From Hydrogenophilales bacterium CG_4_10_14_3_um_filter_63_21 (GTDB lineage: Bacteria; Pseudomonadota; Gammaproteobacteria; Burkholderiales; Thiobacillaceae), in contig PFJX01000026.1 in NCBI GenBank assembly GCA_002784045.1, positions 1 through 42,086 of the forward strand: a stretch of DNA of 42,086 nt, in the 5' to 3' direction. The notes under the pieces were generated by a model that had not been told where the DNA came from, ran no database searches, and worked only from the letters and a program-made list of their open reading frames with translations. Position numbers and translations under genes: made by a program. This document shows, in pieces, positions 13,465 to 32,737 of the stretch (positions are counted from its first letter, which is position 1; every line of letters begins with the position of its first letter).

Positions 13465-13543
13465 ATTGTCCATTGGCCAAGGCTTCGGAGGCGGCCTCCC
13501 ATGTAGCGCCGGCGCTACATGTTCGCCTGGGCTGATGGACAAT
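13465..13543. repeat. Large imperfect palindrome with an 18-base perfect core
   Basis: Almost the whole gap between rfbG and the epimerase gene is symmetric. ATTGTCCAT at 13465-13473 pairs with ATGGACAAT at 13535-13543, and a perfect palindrome TGTAGCGCCGGCGCTACA lies at 13502-13519. The core equals the outer tips of the TGTAGCGC REP family joined without a loop. It could be a collapsed REP element and may attenuate transcription within the operon. Confidence 0.8.
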
Positions 13544-14548: not shown

Positions 14549-14680
14549 TAACGGGCATGGCGGCCCCGCCGCCCCGAACGATGAAACCGGACGCTCCTGT
14601 AGCGCAGGCGTCCTCGCCTGCTCTTGGCGCTGAATGCAGGCGGGGCGCCTGCGCTACAGAGGTGCGGTTGTTTCACGTTA
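14549..14680. mobile_element. MITE-like element with REP arms, TA-flanked, inside the DUF3368 gene
   Basis: The boundaries come from the broken protein. Joining the TA at 14549-14550 to the sequence after the TA at 14679-14680 restores an in-frame GLNVTGTLG, the family consensus. The left end reads TAACGGGCATGGC and the right end TGTTTCACGTTA, so the ends are weakly inverted (TAACG/CGTTA). The second copy at 38958-39133 has the same left end (TAACAGCCATGGC), the same inner ATGAAACCGG box and the same right end. It has no coding capacity. The TA duplication suggests mobilisation by an IS630/Tc1-type or similar transposase elsewhere; that is inference. Confidence 0.7.
14598..14658. repeat. REP-like hairpin inside the MITE-like element
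   Basis: The left arm TGTAGCGCAGGCGTCCTCGC and the right arm GGCGCCTGCGCTACA form a stem. It is the AGGCG variant of the family, matching 32666-32737 more closely than 2989-3047. Confidence 0.8.
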
Positions 14681-27487: not shown

Positions 27488-27546
27488 GTGGGAGCGAGCT
27501 TGCCAGCGATGAAGCACGGCCAATCGCGGGCAAGCCCGCTCCTACG
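27488..27546. repeat. REP-like hairpin, GGGAGCGAGCTTGCC type
   Basis: GTGGGAGCGAGCTTGCCAGC pairs with the right arm GCGGGCAAGCCCGCTCCTAC. The type resembles the pseudomonad REP consensus (GTAGGAGCGAGCTTGC) and differs from the TGTAGCGC family elsewhere in the window. It lies between the convergent ends of the plus-strand cluster and the minus-strand heptose operon, where it could terminate both. Confidence 0.8.
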
Positions 27547-27670: not shown

Positions 27671-28567
27671 CTACTCGGGAAAAGTCGAGTTCGAGCCTGC
27701 GCGCATCTGAAGCTCGTACAGCTTCGCGTATTTCAGGAAACTGGTCAGGCAACCGATGGAGATATGCACCAATCCCGGCACGCCATCGAGAAAACCTCGG
27801 CGCAGGAAGTAGAACTTCACGAAGCGCGCCAGCGGGCTGGTCAGCATCTTCCAGGCGCTGAACCGCTTTCCGGCCGCGAACATGCGCGCGGCCTGGAGGT
27901 CGGTGTAATGGTTCTGCTTCGCCAGGTAATCCGCCAGGCCCTGCTCGGACTCGTGCAGCAGATCGCCTGACAGTTTCACGACTGCCCCGCCGCACACCAA
28001 TTTCTCGTGTACGACATCCTCGCTCCAGTTGGCGCGGCGGCGGTCGAACAAGCGCACGCACCAGTCGGGATAGCCTTCGCCGTGGCGCAGCCAGCGGCCC
28101 ATGAAGCGGTTGCGGCGGGGCAACAGGTACGCAACCGTTGCTCCCTCTGATGAAACTACCAAGCAATCGGCTAAGCGGGCAAACGGCGCCCGCCAAGCCG
28201 CTGCTTGTCCCCCGGCCCCTCTGATAAAGCCCCTACCCTTCGGTATCCCGGAGGGAGAGGGGAGAAGAGCGCGTTCAATGCTGGCACGCAATTCCGGCGT
28301 CACCCGCTCGTCGGCGTCGAGGGAAAGTATCCAATCGTGTTTCGCCTGCAAGGCGGCGAAGCGTTTCTGCGGGCCGTAACCCAGCCACGCCTGGTGGATG
28401 ACCCGCGCGCCCAGGCGCTCCGCCACCACCACGGTGTCGTCGCTGCTGCCGGAATCCACCACCAGCACCTCGTCGGCGCCGGGCACGCTGGCGATGCACT
28501 CGGGCAGCAGTGAAGCGGCGTCGCAAACGATGATGACCAGGGAGAAAGGGAGGCGCGCCTCATTCAT
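27671..28567 (-). CDS. waaE: WaaE/KdtX-like GT2 core glycosyltransferase with in-frame palindromic insert
   Basis: This GT2 enzyme adds a hexose (commonly glucose on heptose I) in the inner core of the WaaE/KdtX family. It has 298 residues from the ATG at 28567; an open extension up to 28660 overlaps waaF and is not used. Family marks are VLVVDSGSSDDTV (about 35-47), WLGYGPQKRFAAL (61-73), LSLDADERVTPEL (81-93) and PRRNRFMGRWLRHGEGYPDW (about 150-169). Residues about 102-144 (SPSGIPKGRGFIRG... to EGAT) have no counterpart in usual family members of about 255 residues. They are encoded by two palindromic repeats at 28160-28265. The insertion keeps the frame and lies in a surface loop after the DXD helix, so activity may persist. 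It overlaps waaF by 4 bases. Confidence 0.85.
   Translation of the reverse strand: MNEARLPFSLVIIVCDAASLLPECIASVPGADEVLVVDSGSSDDTVVVAERLGARVIHQAWLGYGPQKRFAALQAKHDWILSLDADERVTPELRASIERALLPSPSGIPKGRGFIRGAGGQAAAWRAPFARLADCLVVSSEGATVAYLLPRRNRFMGRWLRHGEGYPDWCVRLFDRRRANWSEDVVHEKLVCGGAVVKLSGDLLHESEQGLADYLAKQNHYTDLQAARMFAAGKRFSAWKMLTSPLARFVKFYFLRRGFLDGVPGLVHISIGCLTSFLKYAKLYELQMRAGSNSTFPE
28160..28265. repeat. Palindromic repeat pair inserted in frame in the waaE-like gene
   Basis: The first hairpin at 28160-28207 has arms starting CAAGCAATCGGCTAAGCGGG and ending GCCCGCCAAGCCGCTGCTTG, nearly perfectly complementary. The second part (28208-28265) has TCCCCCGGCCCCTCTG facing GGAGGGAGAGGGGAG, the common CCCTCTCCC-type intergenic repeat. 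Together they encode the extra loop of about 43 residues in the protein. Confidence 0.75.
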
Positions 28568-29640
28568 TCCGGCAACCCCTCCAGCACCCGTTCCGGACCC
28601 AGCTTGTTCAGGCAGTCCAGATGCCCCAAGGGGCACTCCCGCTTGAAGCAGGGGCTGCATTCCAGCCCCAGGCGCAGCACACGCGCCTTGTCTGAAAACG
28701 GTGGCGTGTAGCCGGGGTCGGTGGAGCCGTAGACGGCGATCAGCGGGACATCCACGGCGGCGGCGATGTGCATCAGGCCGGAGTCGTTGCTGACCACGGC
28801 GCGGGCGCAGGCGAGGAGGTCGACGGTTTCTTCGAGGGTGGTCTGGCCGGCAAGGTTGACGCAGGCATCACGCGTCAGCTGGTTGATCGCCTCGGTTACC
28901 GGCCGATCCTTGGCCGAACCGAACAGCCAGACTTGCCAGCCCTCTTGCAGTTTGGCGCGTGCCACCGCCGCGTAGTGGGCTTCCGGCCAGCGTTTGGCGG
29001 GGCCGTATTCGGCGCCGGGACAGAGGGCGAGGATGGGCTGGGCGCGGTCGAGGCCGAGACGGGCGAGGCTGGCCTGCTGAGCTTGGGGGTTGACGGTCAG
29101 CCGTGGTTGCGGGGCCTGAGAAATCCCATCTTCGATGACGTCGCCCCCTGCCCCCCTTTGCGAAAGAGGGTTTGCCGCCGCCGGATAAGCCAGGGCGCTA
29201 AAGCGCTCTACCAGGCGCGGCATCGCCTTTTCATCGAGCCGGCGTATGTCGTTGAGCAGCCGCACGCGGAATTCACCGAGGTACCCGGTGCGCAGCGGAA
29301 TGCCGGCGAAGAAGGGGACCAGGGCGGATTTCCAGGAATTGGGCAGGACAAAGGCCTGGTCATAGCCTGCGCGCGACAGTTCGCGGCCGAGACGCCAGCG
29401 CTCGGTCAAGCCGAAACTGCCGTGCGCGAACGGCGCCACCAGGGCGCGCCGCACTTCCGGCATGCGCGCGAGTATCCCGTGCGACCAGGCCGGGGCGAGC
29501 ACGTCGAGTTCGAGGCCGGCTTCAATGCCAACTTCGCGCGTGGCCAGGGCCTTGAACAGGCTTTGCGCCATCAGCATGTCGCCCACCCAGGACGGGCCGA
29601 CGACCAGGCAGCGATAGGGAATTTCCCGGCCTACCGCCAT
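28564..29640 (-). CDS. waaF: ADP-heptose--LPS heptosyltransferase II WaaF
   Basis: WaaF transfers the second heptose to the inner core. The protein has 358 residues from the ATG at 29640, next to the hldD stop; upstream open sequence belongs to hldD. Motifs are CLVVGPSWVGDMLMAQSLFK (about 11-30), CPGAEYGPAKRWPEAHYA (207-224), SNDSGLMHIAAAVDVPLIAV (284-303) and the cysteine-rich tail LECSPCFKRECPLGHLDCL. These are close to textbook WaaF. It is slightly longer than the usual 345 or so. The excess is a Gly/Ser-rich segment near 157-175 (NPLSQRGAGGDVIEDG) that may be another in-frame repeat insertion (29154-29170). Confidence 0.93.
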   Translation of the reverse strand: MAVGREIPYRCLVVGPSWVGDMLMAQSLFKALATREVGIEAGLELDVLAPAWSHGILARMPEVRRALVAPFAHGSFGLTERWRLGRELSRAGYDQAFVLPNSWKSALVPFFAGIPLRTGYLGEFRVRLLNDIRRLDEKAMPRLVERFSALAYPAAANPLSQRGAGGDVIEDGISQAPQPRLTVNPQAQQASLARLGLDRAQPILALCPGAEYGPAKRWPEAHYAAVARAKLQEGWQVWLFGSAKDRPVTEAINQLTRDACVNLAGQTTLEETVDLLACARAVVSNDSGLMHIAAAVDVPLIAVYGSTDPGYTPPFSDKARVLRLGLECSPCFKRECPLGHLDCLNKLGPERVLEGLPE

Positions 29641-30590
29641 CACGCCGGGTTCTGTTCCAGCCAGGCGAGATATTTCGGAACCCCCTGTTCCACCGCCATG
29701 AACTCCGCCGTGTAGCCGGCCTGGCGCAGCCGGGAGATGTCCGCCTGGGTGTAGCTCTGGTAGCGGCCCTTGAGATGATCCGGGAACGGCATGTAGTCGA
29801 TCTCGCCGCGGCCGTGGTGTTTGATCACCGCGCGCGCCACGTCGTTGAAGCTCTGCGCGCGGCCGGTGCCGACGTTGAAGATGCCGGAGACGCCGGGGTT
29901 GTCGAGCAGCCACAGCTTTACCGCGACGGTGTCGTCAACGTGGATGAAGTCGCGCAGTTGCTCGCCGTTGCCGTAGCCGTCGGTACCTTCGAACAGCTTC
30001 ACCTTGCCGTCCTTGAGTATCTGATTGTGGAAGTGGAAGGCGACGCTGGCCATGCTGCCCTTATGCTGCTCACGCGGGCCATAGACGTTGAAGTAGCGCA
30101 GGCCGGCCACCTGGCTGGCCAGCGCGTTCCAGTGGCGACGTAAATACTGGTCAAACTGGAATTTTGAGAAGGCATACAGGTTGAGCGGCCGCTCGTACTG
30201 ACGCGCTTCCTTGAACACCGGGCCCATGCCGTAGACCGAGGCGGAGGAGGCGTAGATGAACGGGGCTTCGATGGACTGGCACCAATGCAGCAGGGTCTTG
30301 GTGTACTCGAAGTTGTTCTTCATGATGAATTCGCCATCCCACTCGGTGGTGGCGGAACAGGCGCCTTCGTGGACGACCGCGTCGATTTTGCCAAACTCCC
30401 AACCGGCCTGGATGCGCTTGATGAAATCGAGCCGATCGACGTAATCGACGATGTCGCAGTCGGCCAGATTCCTGAATTTGATGCCTTCCTTGAGATCGTC
30501 AACCACCAGGATCTCGGAAATGCCGCGCTGGTTGAGCGCTTTGACCATATTGCTGCCGATGAGGCCGGCGCCGCCGGTGATGATGAACAT
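29640..30590 (-). CDS. hldD: ADP-L-glycero-D-manno-heptose 6-epimerase HldD
   Basis: HldD inverts C6 of ADP-D-glycero-D-manno-heptose, giving the L-glycero form used by heptosyltransferases. The protein has 316 residues, the usual length. The NAD(P) motif is [19 protein letters not shown] (5-23), with Leu where most have Phe. [16 protein letters not shown] follows. The active-site pair appears in ASSASVYG and YAFSKFQFD (YxxxK). [20 protein letters not shown] is diagnostic. It lies between hldE (3 bases away) and waaF (overlapping), an operon order that matches its pathway order. Confidence 0.96.
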
Positions 30591-32088: not shown

Positions 32089-32670
32089 ATGCCTTCGATT
32101 TCAGCCACGATTTCAGCCACACTCGACGCCCATCTGGAAGCCATCAGGGTGCTTCGTACACAGGAAGCCACGATTCGGGAACTCGGTGAAATGCTGGTGG
32201 CCCGCCTGCGCGCCGGCAACCGAATTTTCCTGTGCGGCAATGGCGGCAGCGCGGCGGATGCGCAACATATCGCGGCTGAAATGGTCTGTCGTTTCGAGGC
32301 CCATCGCCGCGCCCTCCCCGCCATCGCGCTGACCACCGATACCTCCGCGCTCACCGCCATCGCCAACGATTTCGGTTATGAGCGCGTGTTCGCGCGCCAG
32401 GTCGAAGCCTTGGCGCGTCCCGGCGATTTGCTGATCGGCATTTCCACCAGCGGCAACAGCGGCAACATCATCGCCGCCGTGGAACAGGCGAGAGACATGG
32501 GCGTCGCCACGCTCGGCCTGCTCGGCGGCGACGGTGGCAAACTGCGCGGCCTGGTCAACCACGAGATGCGGGTGCCAGTACGCGAAACCGCGCGCATCCA
32601 GGAATGCCACATCCTCATCGGCCATATCTGGTGCGGCATGATCGACGAAGCGTTCGCGGAACCCGTGTAG
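32089..32670 (+). CDS. gmhA: Sedoheptulose 7-phosphate isomerase GmhA
   Basis: GmhA converts sedoheptulose 7-phosphate to D-glycero-D-manno-heptose 7-phosphate, the entry to heptose synthesis. The protein has 193 residues, the normal length, with a single SIS domain. IFLCGNGGSAADAQHIAAEM (about 46-65) is the phosphosugar-binding loop with the zinc-site His/Glu region. LIGISTSGNSGNIIAAVEQA is the second loop, and IQECHILIGHIWCGMID carries the C-terminal Glu/His catalytic pair. Its stop codon TAG lies inside the left arm of the REP-like element at 32666. Pathway partners hldE and hldD are divergent neighbours. Confidence 0.95.
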   Translation: MPSISATISATLDAHLEAIRVLRTQEATIRELGEMLVARLRAGNRIFLCGNGGSAADAQHIAAEMVCRFEAHRRALPAIALTTDTSALTAIANDFGYERVFARQVEALARPGDLLIGISTSGNSGNIIAAVEQARDMGVATLGLLGGDGGKLRGLVNHEMRVPVRETARIQECHILIGHIWCGMIDEAFAEPV

Positions 32671-32737
32671 CGCAGGCGTCTCGCCTGCTTTGTATTTTTA
32701 ATCAGACCCACGAAGCAGGCGAGACGCCTGCGCTACA
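32666..32737. repeat. REP-like palindrome with perfect 25-base arms
   Basis: The left arm (32666-32690) starts TGTAGCGCAGGCGTCTCGCC. The right arm (32713-32737) is its exact reverse complement over 25 bases. A 22-base T-rich loop separates them. It supplies the gmhA stop codon and ends 17 bases before the xseA ATG. It may function as a terminator or processing site between them. Confidence 0.9.

Follow-up and report, generated by a model that had tools for sequence, protein, structure and literature searches.

How a working enzyme came to contain palindromic repeat DNA in the middle of its reading frame is the question raised by a GT2-family (WaaE-like) glycosyltransferase gene encoding 298 residues (27671..28567, minus strand; translation and Pfam PF00535, E 5.9e-15) in the window, the 42,086-nucleotide stretch of DNA analysed here. 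A sequence-only reading had placed about 43 extra residues at 28160-28265 and ascribed them to two hairpin repeats inserted in frame. The extra segment is real, is in frame and lies exactly at palindromic DNA, with a frame that is open throughout and a linker of 60 residues against the usual 22. Its size and limits needed revision: the excess over homologues is 38 residues, and the repeat DNA runs from about 28135 to 28264, overlapping the earlier interval without coinciding with it. Likewise, the two supposed hairpin repeats are indeed palindromic, but are really one repeat, REP-A, with a 24-base element in it (28208-28264) and a separate 60-base hairpin element (28148-28207). The insertion thus consists of three nested elements, a point that the earlier reading had missed. 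We consider it probable, at roughly 0.82, that the 38 extra residues arose in three steps, as one small dispersed repeat after another was inserted into a tolerant loop on the surface of a working GT2 enzyme.

Three nested repeats in one glycosyltransferase gene

The gene lies downstream of an LPS heptosyltransferase II gene (waaF/rfaF; 28564..29580, minus strand; TIGR02195, 429 bits) and near that of an NAD-dependent epimerase (29643..30590, minus strand; PF01370, E 1e-44), which from its position we take to be hldD-like. Because these two genes adjoin the glycosyltransferase gene, their context is probably that of the LPS core; WaaE is the name given by the earlier reading, and no curated equivalog was found. 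Outside the insert the gene is under purifying selection, with dN/dS of 0.080/0.319 against an insert-free relative (G015) and 0.100/0.499 against a relative that carries an insert (G014), and D38, D84, D86 and other residues do not vary across the protein alignment. In an AlphaFold model built from 35 aligned sequences (mean pLDDT 85.9), residues 107-109 and 111-135 fall below 50; along the protein this stretch comes after a DAD motif at 84-86 and a helix (91-100) and is followed by a strand (144-155). The top structural matches of the model are glycosyltransferases such as SunS, with TM-scores near 0.5, and presumably have the GT-A fold. On this model the insert is best read as a predicted disordered surface loop.

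The whole in-frame composite occupies 28135..28264 on the minus strand, as delimited by linker lengths and by DNA alignment of eight orthologues, and its parts follow one another along the gene as REP-A left part, 24-base element, REP-A middle part, 60-base element and REP-A right end. The left part (28246..28264, minus strand), which is supported by uninterrupted REP-A copies at other loci, ends in GGGA, the first target site. The 24-base element (28222..28245, minus strand; one mismatch to its consensus) stands at GGGA↓GAGGGG of REP-A, the arrow marking the point of insertion, and is missing from the REP-A of the glycosyltransferase orthologues in G003 and G019. It is followed by the REP-A middle part (28208..28221, minus strand), ending in GGGGGA, the second target site; here, at REP-A's second GGGGGA↓GAGGG, the 60-base hairpin element (28148..28207, minus strand) lies between GGGGGA and GAGGGAGC, and among the eight orthologues it is present in the window's gene only. 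The REP-A right end, GAGGGAGCAACGG, completes the composite (28135..28147, minus strand). Folded as DNA, 28140-28275 has z = -2.97 (1 of 200 shuffles as stable); the gene-strand RNA has z = -2.99 (2 of 200), and the hairpin of the 60-base element is present in both folds. By inspection REP-A has no GTAG or CGTC end tag; another repeat that hosts the 24-base element, GTAGGATGTGGT.., does have GTAG. One of the uninterrupted REP-A copies (L088/L002) is crossed by no long open frame. Further palindromes of the window, at 13503-13518, 14599-14657, 32667-32736 and 27536-27545, resemble host types of the 24-base element and do not contain the element itself.

Stages of the insertion survive in relatives. 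In the DNA alignment of the eight genus orthologues, from which more distant GT2 matches were left out as not being orthologues, the region measures 117 coding nucleotides when empty (four orthologues), 153 and 165 with REP-A only, 189 with REP-A and the 24-base element, and 231 in the window, and all length differences are multiples of three. The 189-nucleotide stage is that of G014, whose insert has REP-A and the 24-base element and no 60-base element. Protein linkers were measured in 69 of 80 loci found plus the window protein (L165, L166 and L171-L179, partial or most distant, being excluded): 65 of these 70 sequences have 22-25 residues, usually 22, compared with 60 in the window protein, 46, 38 and 34 in three genus relatives and 37 in a distant Sulfuritalea homologue (L145). 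Homologues lacking exactly this segment, which the sequence-only reading had named as support, are thus found both as the four empty orthologues and as the many short linkers. The same reading had named close homologues with the same loop and no palindromic origin as the refuting case, and none was found: the relatives with loops (G014, G003 and G019) all have REP-A, with or without the 24-base element, in loops whose length and sequence differ between species. The records of the relatives are proteobacterial metagenome assemblies, two with groundwater-type isolate names. The Sulfuritalea linker is 15 residues longer than usual at the same site; as an independent repeat insertion it was set aside, its DNA showing no repeat recognised by eye.

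Taken together, REP-A would have entered first, in the interval from the helix behind the DXD-like motif to the following strand; the 24-base element would then have entered REP-A at GGGA↓GAGGGG, and the related 60-base element would have followed at the second GGGA↓GAGGG of REP-A. For these two elements the order is suggested by G014, which has the 24-base element alone.

The 24- and 60-base elements and their target sites

The 24-base element is built of a 12-base stem-loop, TACC-GAAG-GGTA, and a 12-base tail ending in TTCATCA. With up to three mismatches, 32 copies are found in the window's genome (none for a reversed-pattern control); with up to two, the element occurs in 13 of 23 genus genomes, with 64 copies in one of them (controls none). 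A sample of 200 genomes from the order gave five carriers at that threshold, all of one family, and a sample of 369 from the class gave one, the window's own. We read 112 distinct copies in context, drawn from the matches listed and not at random: the first 16 regions were chosen by a match to the insert peptide (three such matches contain stops), and the remainder are listed match positions in the scans of the own genome, the genus and the order. The triplet 5' of the element is GGT, GGG or GGA in 90 of the 112 copies, GGA and GGT alone accounting for 61 against a background of 3.3%, and the base directly 3' is G in 97. When the 24 bases were excised, 84 of the 112 junctions matched an uninterrupted repeat copy elsewhere in the fetched loci (random-position controls, 0/112), and no such counterpart was found in those loci for the other 28. 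By rough patterns, seven host-repeat types cover 92 copies, the GTAGGATGTGGT and CAAAGGGGGG types having 25 each, and 20 are unsorted. Filled and empty sites of the glycosyltransferase gene, hemF and other loci differ by no target-site duplication, and the ends of the element, TACC and ATCA, are not terminal inverted repeats. At one locus (L080:1501-1570) two copies in inverted orientation are separated by 22 bases, close to repeat sequence of the GTAGGAGCGG type.

Insertion at hairpin apices was considered as a rule for target choice and dropped. The ungapped palindrome score around junctions is above control (7.64 vs 6.85), but the number of pairs spanning the junction when the flanks are folded is not (9.5 vs 10.0, p 0.79), though the folds are more stable; because support is mixed, our claim is limited to the target motif and to the location in other repeats.

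The 60-base element matches in 16 of the 23 genus genomes, with 44 matches in G015, 20 in G014 and 10 in the window's genome, the last being of a type, counting the window copy itself, to which that copy is 78% identical over 64 bases. As read from the sequence it has a 48-base hairpin and a 12-base tail like that of the 24-base element. Across 33 copies read in context, it has in common with the smaller element a tail mostly ending in TTCATCA, several host repeats and the sites GGGA↓GAGGG and GGG↓GGGATTT. It lies inside a 24-base element at two loci (L325 and L336) and directly after the stem-loop of one at L028, and at L220 two copies stand within one REP-A, the second at GGGGGA↓GAGGG as in the window. 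A common form of it is open in three of six frames and the window copy in four; the latter starts with CAA, many copies with TAA. By these sequence likenesses the 60-base element appears to be a sister of the 24-base element. Five G015 contigs (C112, C235, C236, C296 and C297) start at base 1 with a match to it, which suggests that long palindromes around the element break assemblies. A REP-A-like repeat at L067:1244-1520 (G000:C103) holds a diverged element of the 60-base type, interrupted in turn by a larger palindrome with ends like AGTCTGTCGGACTTTGG, which adds a further level of nesting.

Both elements thus stand for the most part at GG(A/T/G)↓G and within other repeats, and neither shows a visible target-site duplication. 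Because both lengths are multiples of three, and the 24-base element is stop-free in four of six frames, nesting within a REP that is already in frame tends to keep the frame. Frame upkeep is in this sense arithmetic plus selection and is not evidence of a frame-seeking mechanism.

Other genes with in-frame copies

A second staged series is found in hemF, where the region measures 108 nucleotides in the 13 empty genomes read and then 144, 159, 171 (two genomes) and 192. In the longest (G010) the 24-base element sits in REP-A at the same GGGA↓GAGGGG, and hemF of G011, G002, G013 and G014 has REP-A alone. The 20 loci tallied by pattern comprise 13 empty, five with inserts and two that the pattern did not catch (G003, whose hemF also has REP-A, and G008); elsewhere, G005 gave no match, G016 a weak match only and G012 no locus. 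The empty G015 is placed among inserted genomes in the waaE tree, at a node support of 0.14, and within carriers in the hemF tree too, where the node joining it to G011 has a support of 0.96; loss, repeated gain or recombination is needed since this holds in both gene trees.

Among the 112 copies of the 24-base element, 55 fall within open frames (53 distinct ones). The other 57 have no open frame of at least 150 residues through them, which fits non-coding places as far as open frames can tell. The repeat is dispersed, with 32 copies in the window's genome, and may well be intergenic too, the second kind of support that the sequence-only reading had named. A Pfam scan of 40 of these frames, leaving out 13 of the 53 and among them the window's own gene, found domain evidence on both sides of the element or spanning it in 19 (20 copies), on one side in 12 and none in nine; four of the 19 (L202, L205, L234 and L257) were settled by a separate scan of the half that lacked evidence at first, and 19/40 is not a rate because the scanned frames were partly chosen for being open. 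The 19 comprise valyl-tRNA synthetase (valS), DNA polymerase I (polA; two genomes), Mfd (two loci), HemF, a nitrite-reductase-like protein, a molybdopterin oxidoreductase (two copies), an AMP-binding enzyme, two methyltransferases, a DUF4147 protein, DnaX, HypF, an aminotransferase, glutathione synthetase, Cas1, a 6-phosphogluconolactonase-type protein and an AcrB-type transporter. Insertion is thus not confined to an LPS gene. In the window's own genome, 4 of the 30 copies with loci lie in open frames, and the glycosyltransferase alone is confirmed; of the other three, L090 has Pfam evidence on one side and L071 none, and L070 is a candidate by its open frame.

Competing explanations, mobilisation and known systems

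The explanation that comes nearest to competing is that composites were amplified as units, the 24-base element having entered each REP family once and spread as a passenger, itself hardly mobile. Many copies do share a host type, 25 in each of two types. The sorted copies nevertheless fall into seven host types (92/112) with 20 more unsorted, the hosts of 84 of 112 are found uninterrupted, and waaE and hemF of relatives have the host REP without the 24-base element, all of which makes amplification as a unit unlikely. A loop selected for altered acceptor recognition, and hence for LPS structure, would suit its place in a glycosyltransferase, behind the helix that follows the DAD motif; we regard this as improbable, since composites with the 24-base element also occur in unrelated housekeeping enzymes and the loop is predicted to be disordered and varies in length and sequence between species.

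The two remaining explanations fare worse. The genome is a draft of 174 contigs, so the insertion might mark a pseudogene or an assembly error, but the open frame, the low dN/dS and the invariant D38, D84, D86 and other residues speak against decay, and parts of the same composite stand in the separate records of relatives; we give this explanation very little weight. Least credible of all is an ancestral protein loop that was lost elsewhere and resembles repeats by chance or composition. A single gain of REP-A with loss in G015 is permitted by the waaE tree, yet 65 of 70 sequences are without the loop and the same letters are dispersed as repeats elsewhere in the genome. Stepwise nesting of small repeats in a loop of the glycosyltransferase is thus the explanation that we prefer, and the inserted loop would be functionally neutral.

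As to the machinery, we infer transposition of the elements in trans, with an HUH (Y1, RAYT-type) enzyme that works on single-stranded DNA as the likeliest agent; duplication-free insertion of hairpin-bearing DNA at a short motif does resemble HUH (Y1) single-strand transposition. RAYT-type mobilisation seems the likeliest single route, and we put it forward tentatively, at somewhat less than even odds. The window's genome has three PF01797 matches, and of two compared with the NCBIfam RAYT model one scored above and one below the cut-off; over the 23 genomes the copy number of the 24-base element follows the number of PF01797 matches (Spearman 0.79, for related genomes with kinship ignored). 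A RAYT-like gene (L067:389-1096) ends about 150 bp from the diverged 60-base-type element of that locus. RAYT as a proven mobiliser was nevertheless rejected: three of the 16 genomes with the 60-base element have no RAYT hit, presence and absence of RAYT and the 24-base element are associated at a borderline level only (23 genomes, Fisher p 0.052), and the canonical 5' GT[AG]G foot is absent from the hairpins of both elements, the GTAG of the 24-base element spanning the 3' end of its stem and not a 5' foot. A search of the fetched loci with the tail found no autonomous element with the same ends, the only other carrier besides the 24-base element being the 60-base type.

There is nearly an even chance, in our estimation, that the 24- and 60-base elements form one minimal mobile family parasitising repeats, whose shared machinery, possibly RAYT-type and in trans, targets GG(A/T/G)↓G in REPs; as REPs are already in frame in many genes, this would provide a stepwise route to disordered loops in proteins of the genus.

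At one locus (L068:101-1681, minus strand; G000:C138), by NCBIfam, the N-terminal linker of a family-4 uracil-DNA glycosylase contains a RAYT transposase domain in frame, with repeat-like peptides (VAQASSPAS or similar) on either side of it. Open frames with both RAYT and glycosylase motifs, judged by motif only, occur at L303, L306 and L311 in three further genomes, and a literature search returned no relevant report of such a fusion.

Gain of a protein loop is usually inferred, whereas here its stages survive in living relatives, in two genes and with boundaries at base level. The sharp target and the copy number of the 24-base element make its mobilising enzyme directly testable. For annotation, peptides like PSPxGxPKGRGFIRGAGGEG in these genomes are translated repeats and not protein motifs. 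To our knowledge, a 24-base sequence with clean empty sites would rank among the smallest mobile elements.

Nearest to the 24-base element, we presume, is the 21-27-nt SDR of Nostoc. SDRs, as Elhai and co-workers reportedly described them in 2008, are dispersed and embedded in other repeats, with nested copies, and by this definition the element fits in size (24 nt) and in dispersal (13/23 genomes, 64 copies in one). By description, the two differ in that Nostoc belongs to a different phylum and that the element here has a GG(A/T/G)↓G target, sites that also occur empty and numerous coding copies in frame. MITEs differ in another way, the 24-base element having neither terminal inverted repeats nor target-site duplication. 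SDRs are also mentioned in PMC3116915.

REPIN/RAYT (TnpA-REP) systems (PMC3116915 and PMC6006769) are likewise non-autonomous hairpin elements, and RAYT-type genes are present in the window's genome; canonical REPs with a 5' GT[AG]G foot, and REPs inside tnpA-REP genes that do not break the frame, are described in the latter. The 24- and 60-base elements are without that foot, and lie inside REPs rather than being REPs themselves. Insertion sequences that target REPs are known (PMC1525189, and ISPpu9 in PMC8450116) and are alike in using REPs as targets; those are full insertion sequences, whereas the elements here have 24 or 60 bases, no transposase coding capacity and several host repeat types. 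The Rickettsia RPEs, about 150 bp long, lie in frame in unrelated genes and encode added peptides, according to a review (PMC10969869). They resemble our case in being in-frame insertions with the frame kept (the waaE-like gene, hemF and 19/40 Pfam-scanned frames) and differ, by description, from units of about 36-48, 24 and 60 bases that are staged, nested and found in another bacterial group. Closest in setting are the GTAG/CGTC REPs that the available text of PMC3733652 reports inside ORFs of many functional classes, including DNA polymerase I, excinucleases and tRNA synthetases, with many in DNA repair genes, a same-site case in recB and a reference to the Rickettsia RPEs. These too are small palindromes inside ORFs of many classes; REP-A is without their tag, and they are single, dimeric or grouped, with no second or third kind of element nested in a REP in that text. 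A limited literature search found no report of small elements nested in REPs inside genes. In-frame intragenic REPs are already published (PMC3733652), and it is the tiny repeat-dwelling elements and their staged nesting that look new.
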